Origin: Thermonema rossianum DSM 10300
Lineage (GTDB): Bacteria; Bacteroidota; Bacteroidia; Cytophagales; Thermonemataceae
DNA length: 64,000 bases
Reading direction: 5' to 3'
Assembly: GCF_000426825.1 (NCBI RefSeq)
Contig: NZ_AUGC01000006.1
Coordinates: 62,001-126,000 of the forward strand
Shown here: positions 14,770 to 15,315 of the stretch, one piece after another
How the letters are laid out: each line of letters begins with the position of its first letter
Position numbering within the stretch: position 1 is the stretch's first letter
Translations under genes and position numbers: made by a program
The notes under the pieces: generated by a model
What the model saw: only the letters and a program-made list of their open reading frames with translations
Database searches by the model: none
What the model was told of the DNA's origin: nothing

Positions 14770-14860
14770 GGAGGGTTGGCAGAGCGGTCGAATGCGGCGG
14801 TCTTGAAAACCGTTGTGGGTGATGAGCCCACCGGGGGTTCGAATCCCTCACCCTCCGCCA
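14770..14860 (+). tRNA. tRNA-Ser (anticodon TGA)
   Basis: The acceptor stem GGAGGGT/ACCCTCC encloses a class II tRNA with a long variable arm. The anticodon arm CGGTC-TTGAAAA-CCG gives anticodon TGA, reading UCN codons. The T arm GGGGG-TTCGAAT-CCCTC is canonical. The 3' CCA is encoded (14858-14860), unlike in the tRNA-Leu of this window. Confidence 0.96.
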
Positions 14861-14865
14861 AGCCA

Positions 14866-14898
14866 AAAGGACAGTCACAGCGGCTGTCCTTTTTTGTT
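14866..14898 (+). terminator. Terminator of tRNA-Ser
   Basis: AAAGGACAG/CTGTCCTTT stem with a 9-base loop followed by TTTGTTTTT. Confidence 0.9.
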
Positions 14899-15121: not shown

Positions 15122-15153
15122 TTTGGCAATTTCATTAAAATTTATTACATTTG
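15122..15153 (+). promoter_or_regulatory. Consensus promoter of the PFG-peptide gene
   Basis: TTTG at 15122-15125, a 20-bp A/T-rich spacer and TACATTTG at 15146-15153 give a full match to the Bacteroidota -33/-7 consensus. Initiation is expected near 15160, leaving a leader of about 27 nt. Confidence 0.85.
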
Positions 15154-15171
15154 TTGACATCATAAAAAGCA

Positions 15172-15178
15172 AAGGAGG
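15172..15178 (+). promoter_or_regulatory. Perfect Shine-Dalgarno sequence (AAGGAGG)
   Basis: AAGGAGG ends 8 bases before the ATG at 15187, the ideal spacing. It is striking because Bacteroidota genes, including those in this window, generally lack Shine-Dalgarno sequences. Confidence 0.85.
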
Positions 15179-15186
15179 GCATTATT

Positions 15187-15264
15187 ATGAAAGCTCCATT
15201 TGGAAATCCGTTCGGTTCACCCTTTGGTTCGCCTTTTGGCAGCCCATTTGGGAATCGCCTGTAA
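15187..15264 (+). CDS. 25-residue PFG-repeat microprotein
   Basis: A tiny complete gene encodes MKA, then five PFG units at a strict four-residue period separated by N or S (PFGN, PFGS three times, PFGN), then RL. It has its own consensus promoter, an ideal Shine-Dalgarno sequence and a terminator, giving a transcript of about 150 nt. Synonymous codons vary among the repeats: proline uses CCA, CCG, CCC, CCT; glycine GGA, GGT, GGC, GGG; serine TCA, TCG, AGC. Repeat DNA has therefore diverged while the peptide stayed uniform, as expected under selection on the protein. No signal peptide or known domain is seen. The function is unknown. A role as a regulatory RNA remains possible but would not explain the codon pattern. 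Confidence 0.75.
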   Translation: MKAPFGNPFGSPFGSPFGSPFGNRL

Positions 15265-15283
15265 TCAAAGGGATGATACCCAC

Positions 15284-15315
15284 AAAGGCACCTCAGAAGG
15301 GTGCCTTTTCTTTTT
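15284..15315 (+). terminator. Terminator of the PFG-peptide gene
   Basis: AAAGGCACC (15284-15292) pairs with GGTGCCTTT (15300-15308), followed by TCTTTTT. It lies 20 bp after the stop codon. Confidence 0.92.

Follow-up and report, generated by a model that had tools for sequence, protein, structure and literature searches.

The 64,000-nt stretch of Thermonema rossianum DSM 10300 DNA that we analyzed (the window) contains a very short open reading frame (ORF) on the plus strand at 15187..15264, with the ATG at 15187 and the stop codon at 15262-15264. Direct reading of the sequence gives a peptide of 25 aa followed by a stop, MKAPFGNPFGSPFGSPFGSPFGNRL, in which five PFG units recur with a period of four residues. 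The ORF belongs to a transcription unit at 15122-15315 that comprises a promoter, a Shine-Dalgarno sequence, the ORF, and an intrinsic terminator. The promoter consists of a -33 element, TTTG (15122..15125, plus strand), and a -7 element, TACATTTG (15146..15153, plus strand; consensus TAnnTTTG), separated by a 20-nt spacer, and transcription would be expected to start at about 15158-15161. The combination of TTTG and TAnnTTTG is the -33/-7 type of promoter used with the primary sigma factor in Bacteroidota. A scan for promoters of the Escherichia coli type retrieved TTGGCA-N17-TACATT with a score of 9 out of 12; this reading was dropped, since the Bacteroidota type fits the homologues. The Shine-Dalgarno sequence AAAGGAGGG (15171..15179, plus strand) ends 7 nt 5' of the ATG, and its core GGAGG (15174-15178) lies 8 nt 5' of it. 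The terminator, AAAGGCACCTCAGAAGGGTGCCTTT followed by TCTTTTT (15284..15315, plus strand), has a stem of ten pairs (15284-15308) and a T-run, and the unit ends at about 15315. The upstream neighbor is a tRNA-Ser(TGA) gene (14770..14860, plus strand) that has its own promoter-like site and its own terminator (14865-14893); the PFG gene is therefore a separate unit. These data bear out the preliminary description of the locus, which had proposed a stand-alone gene with promoter, Shine-Dalgarno sequence, and terminator for a 25-residue peptide with five PFG units. Its codon count was likewise exact: the five repeats employ four Pro codons (CCA, CCG, CCC, and CCT) and four Gly codons (GGA, GGT, GGC, and GGG), and the spacer Ser residues are encoded by three (TCA, TCG, and AGC).

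To define the taxonomic range of the gene, we used the pattern ATG-N6-CCNTTYGG-N4-CCNTTYGG, which corresponds to ATG, two codons, and PFGxPFG. Homologues were found in all eight genomes of the family (four genera, including Raineya orbicola; completeness of 81-99%), one of which contains two, giving nine genes that encode peptides of 16 to 25 aa. Thermonema has been described as the nearest genus of Raineya (PMC5982127). Apart from the window genome (G000), the peptides are MKAPFGNPFGMPFGSPFGNRL in G001, MNNPFGNPFGSPFGHPFGDKI in G002, MKTPFGNPFGMPFGSPFGMPFGTK in G003, MKSPFGNPFGMPFGTK in G004, MNQPFGNPFGNPFGNK and MNTPFGNPFGSPFGNK in G005, MKSPFGNPFGKPFGTK in G006, and MKSPFGTPFGMPFGTPFGSK in G007; in several species of genus g4 the microprotein has just 16 residues. 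A DNA search of relatives matched the ORF in G001, G006, G002, and G004. Among 382 other genomes of the Cytophagales, a single one (G343, locus L032) matched the pattern, with an unrelated, non-repeat ORF of about 67 aa that has only two units, and we took this match as chance. With a triple-repeat pattern, a class sample of 395 genomes gave no match other than the own genome; besides the latter, this sample contains 15 genomes of the order and 379 further ones of the class, and no other family member. In a scan of public genomes, four contigs matched, of which one is named Raineya orbicola and the others are metagenome-assembled genomes. The triple-repeat scan of viral contigs returned 39 loci, none of them a short MKxPFGxPFG-type ORF, and a phage origin was rejected on this basis. 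Pfam profile searches with three members gave no match at an E value of 10 (peptides this short seldom score), and neither a PDB sequence search nor a literature text search with the repeat strings retrieved a relevant match, in agreement with the initial statement that no known family was recognized.

The comparison of the nine genes indicates that selection acts on the peptide. The frame is kept in all of them and broken in none, the number of repeats ranges from 3 to 5 and changes by whole units, and differences in length consist of whole units plus short tails. P, F, and G are retained, and the spacer residues vary freely. The search pattern itself demands P, F, and G in units one and two, so part of their constancy at these positions is built in; the later units, as well as the presence of one to two copies per family genome versus none elsewhere, are free of this effect. 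When the 34 PFG units were pooled, all four Pro codons (CCT 15, CCA 12, CCC 5, and CCG 2) and all four Gly codons (GGA 13, GGT 9, GGC 8, and GGG 4) were used, together with both Phe codons (TTT 26 and TTC 8), and 16 distinct 9-mers were present. Over the first 10 codons shared by the nine homologues, the pooled pS was 0.66 and pN 0.085, resulting in a pN/pS of 0.13, a value that derives from few codons and from pairs that are not independent. When the frame is shifted by one base, each of the nine genes begins with a TGA stop, and the other frames are not open throughout the set. Based on these sequence comparisons, the PFG gene very probably encodes a translated microprotein under selection. 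The early claim of selection on the protein rather than on the DNA repeat was thus upheld, and none of the findings named at the outset as contrary to it (a lost frame, frameshifts, or conservation of RNA structure alone) was encountered.

The same comparison bears on the possibility that the locus specifies an RNA with a regulatory or dual function whose ORF would be incidental. A compact unit of about 150 nt with a promoter and a terminator would suit such an RNA, as would its fold z-score of -2.1, which is in part due to the terminator itself. However, conservation tracks the codons and not an RNA structure, the nine homologues share no transcript sequence beyond the promoter and the ORF, and a scan of the window for structured-RNA families detected two tRNAs only, with no Rfam family at the PFG unit. 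An antisense RNA is conceivable in the four g4 copies, in which the gene stands tail-to-tail with ridA (in four of four g4 genomes), but we regard an RNA function as very improbable.

We found no neighbor gene that is constant across the nine copies. In G000 and G001, genes for a lipocalin-like protein and a hydrolase lie downstream, and the same pair is located 4 kb downstream in G002, which makes this the probable ancestral locus in the genera of these three genomes. The G003 copy and the second G005 copy occupy other genomic locations with other neighbors; the latter is convergent with a pheS-like gene (L051, 8667-9704; identified by eye). This gene order largely refutes an attenuator leader peptide that senses the charging of Phe, Pro, or Gly tRNAs, a reading suggested by a short ORF rich in these residues that is followed by a terminator. 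The downstream genes differ by genus and are convergent in five copies (four with ridA and one with the pheS-like gene), so that there is no single conserved, co-directed target; furthermore, P, F, and G are kept equally instead of a single amino acid, and no anti-terminator was seen. Among the explanations considered, we find this one the hardest to credit.

A secreted or externally acting peptide, such as a bacteriocin, a signal, or a precursor of a ribosomally synthesized and posttranslationally modified peptide (RiPP), is somewhat less implausible than either of these but still quite improbable. Repeats of a short core recall some RiPP precursors, but the PFG peptide has no leader or signal sequence, and no modifying, transport, or export gene is constant beside the nine copies. 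There is also one housekeeping-type gene in every species. The window peptide contains no hydrophobic membrane-spanning run such as a type I toxin or a small membrane protein would have, and each unit carries both Pro and Gly. For the secreted signal raised in the preliminary description, neither a signal peptide nor a membrane segment is visible in the sequence.

The promoter is widely shared: TTTG-N19-22-TAnnTTTG with at most one mismatch was found 24 to 41 nt 5' of the ATG in eight of the nine genes, the promoter of G002 being uncertain. A terminator of its own is visible in about half of the gene copies, with a stem and T-run comparable to those in the window following the ORF in G001, G002, G003, and one of the two G005 copies (G005b). 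The distribution of the Shine-Dalgarno sequence is narrower. Strong versions are limited to G000 and G001, which represent the genus of the window; G002 has a weaker AAAGGA, and none is present in genera g3 and g4. In samples of about 400 kb, on which the ORF statistics for Shine-Dalgarno sequences and single PFG motifs are based, just 3 of the 368 ORFs sampled from the own genome had GGAGG near the start; the site of the PFG gene is thus unusual there. A purine-rich, Shine-Dalgarno-like tract precedes rpsU in seven of the eight family genomes, which otherwise have no such tracts (loci L183-L189), and another, AAAAAGGAGGA, precedes grpE of G000 (L181:12523). Genes with Shine-Dalgarno sequences are rare in Bacteroidia; rpsU is autoregulated via one, and Flavobacterium johnsoniae ribosomes without bS21 gain the use of messages that carry them (McNutt et al., PMC9976891).

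These observations raise the possibility of a translation-coupled element, in which the early PFG codons or the nascent chain would act in the ribosome (by stalling, start-site tuning, or sensing of the ribosome state through the Shine-Dalgarno sequence) and the finished peptide would be idle. In the microprotein, as in most of the longer proteins that carry it, the motif lies near the start codon, the genus of the window uses a strong Shine-Dalgarno sequence in a genome that almost never does, and the rpsU and grpE tracts, together with the behavior of ribosomes lacking bS21, would provide a context. Nevertheless, the Shine-Dalgarno sequence is missing from the gene in g3 and g4, there is no conserved downstream gene to regulate, the third codon positions are free, and the number of units varies between 3 and 5. 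We therefore judge this explanation unlikely, although it deserves more weight than the other alternatives to a functional peptide. The ribosome-state reporter proposed initially does not fit the family, because the strong Shine-Dalgarno sequence is limited to one genus; coupling to the ribosome state within the genus of the window alone is a fair minor hypothesis.

The PFGxPFG motif is not confined to the microprotein. It occurs at 10 further loci in the eight family genomes (1.25 per genome), versus 50 matches in 186 other Cytophagales genomes (0.27 per genome). This is an enrichment of about five times over background that corresponds to about seven independent events and is suggestive. Eight of the 10 loci are in plausible coding frames, most of them near an N-terminus; the other two (L089 and L090) look like chance. 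The DUF1573 proteins of G004, G005, and G007 contain PFGxPFG in the n-region of the signal peptide, directly in front of its hydrophobic core, and a large secreted protein of G004 carries it in the same place. In G003 the motif is found in a small membrane protein and in an N-terminal extension of ClpP, and in G004 and G006 a 33-aa ORF ends with PFGSPFGSGNC. Almost all of the loci that were inspected in genomes outside the family lay antisense to a gene or out of its frame, and none was N-terminal in a plausible gene. The window's own genus has no second PFGxPFG protein, and an N-terminal enrichment of single PFG motifs in Raineya was absent once two preselected loci were set aside.

Several further observations were made at these loci. 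The DUF1573 gene that has the N-terminal PFGxPFG in G004, G005, and G007 is broken by frameshifts in G006 (L119/L122, G006:C35). Single-domain DUF1573 genes of several family genomes are preceded, about 60 to 80 nt 5' of the start, by TTGGAACACCTTTTGC or a similar sequence with the arrangement GG-N10-GC, which resembles a sigma-54 promoter (L097-L099, L101, and L103). In three g4 genomes, a 33-aa ORF (..KREVFMPFGSPFGSGNC) is followed by a terminator-like stem and lies upstream of a 63-aa ORF, MENLIKTNKCPTIWLGVD... (L251, L252, and L253). Tandem DUF1573 proteins have a conserved C-terminal PF tail: they end in NPFGF, NPFGL, or NPLGF throughout the family, and often in VPFK or NPFK at the corresponding position in other families of the order (L289-L295 and L298 vs. 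L296-L317). The NPFGF tail was considered as the motif that the microprotein might mimic; this candidate was rejected, as xPFK-like tails occupy this position in other families of the order that have no microprotein.

With such a composition, the peptide probably does not form a folded domain. It might act alone as a structural, assembly, or condensate-forming peptide, since Phe is present at every fourth residue together with Gly and Pro and the length is variable, but several g4 species make do with 16 residues, and the strict retention of P, F, and G suggests specific recognition over bulk stickiness; such a role appears improbable, if a little less so than secretion. The retention of x-P-F-G, the free spacers, and the variable copy number favor instead a cytosolic multivalent docking ligand or competitor, which we propose tentatively as the most plausible function. 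According to this proposal, the housekeeping sigma factor would direct transcription of the gene, and the translated product would remain in the cytosol, where each x-P-F-G unit may form a beta-turn to which a family-specific partner docks. The repeats would supply avidity, making the free peptide a multivalent ligand or competitor for this partner, and a few longer proteins of the family, with PFGxPFG at their cytosolic N-termini, would be read by the same partner. Because the genus of the window has no second protein of this type, it is the sister genera that support this shared-receptor step. A more elaborate version, in which PFGxPFG would be a lineage-specific N-terminal address for a putative cytosolic receptor of this thermophile-containing family and the microprotein the free multivalent ligand that sets receptor occupancy, and would thereby decide whether a few tagged proteins are targeted or degraded, is speculative, and we consider it slightly less probable than the translation-coupled element. 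Should the docking idea be true, the PFG repeat would offer a defined peptide for fishing out the putative receptor.

The repeat recalls several known systems. The G/F-rich linker of E. coli DnaJ contains Phe-Gly repeats with a four-residue period; the PFG microprotein has no J domain, however, and the three DnaJ proteins of the family that we read contain no PFG unit in their linkers, for which reason a mimic of the DnaJ linker was rejected. Eukaryotic NPF and FG short linear motifs occur in tandem and likely form beta-turns, and the resemblance of these systems to the PFG repeat is limited to the motif; we know of no bacterial reader of the NPF/FG kind. The gene is similar to those of the rpsU (bS21) type (PMC9976891) in having, in the genus of the window, a strong Shine-Dalgarno sequence where the genome has very few, but it differs in that this sequence is absent from g3 and g4, even though rpsU of g4 keeps one. 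The gene also resembles those of the lineage-restricted bacterial microproteins (<50 aa), with which it shares a tiny monocistronic gene with its own promoter and terminator, purifying selection, and a narrow range. ORFs as short as this one are usually discarded by annotation pipelines, and no paper or Pfam family describing it was found, so that it is apparently an undescribed and unusual member of this broad kind. Unlike its counterparts, it is a nearly pure tetrapeptide repeat of variable unit number, with no membrane segment and no recognized family (Pfam, and PDB by sequence), and it thus provides a clean case near the lower size limit of protein genes, in which an almost pure motif repeat is present in every family member examined.
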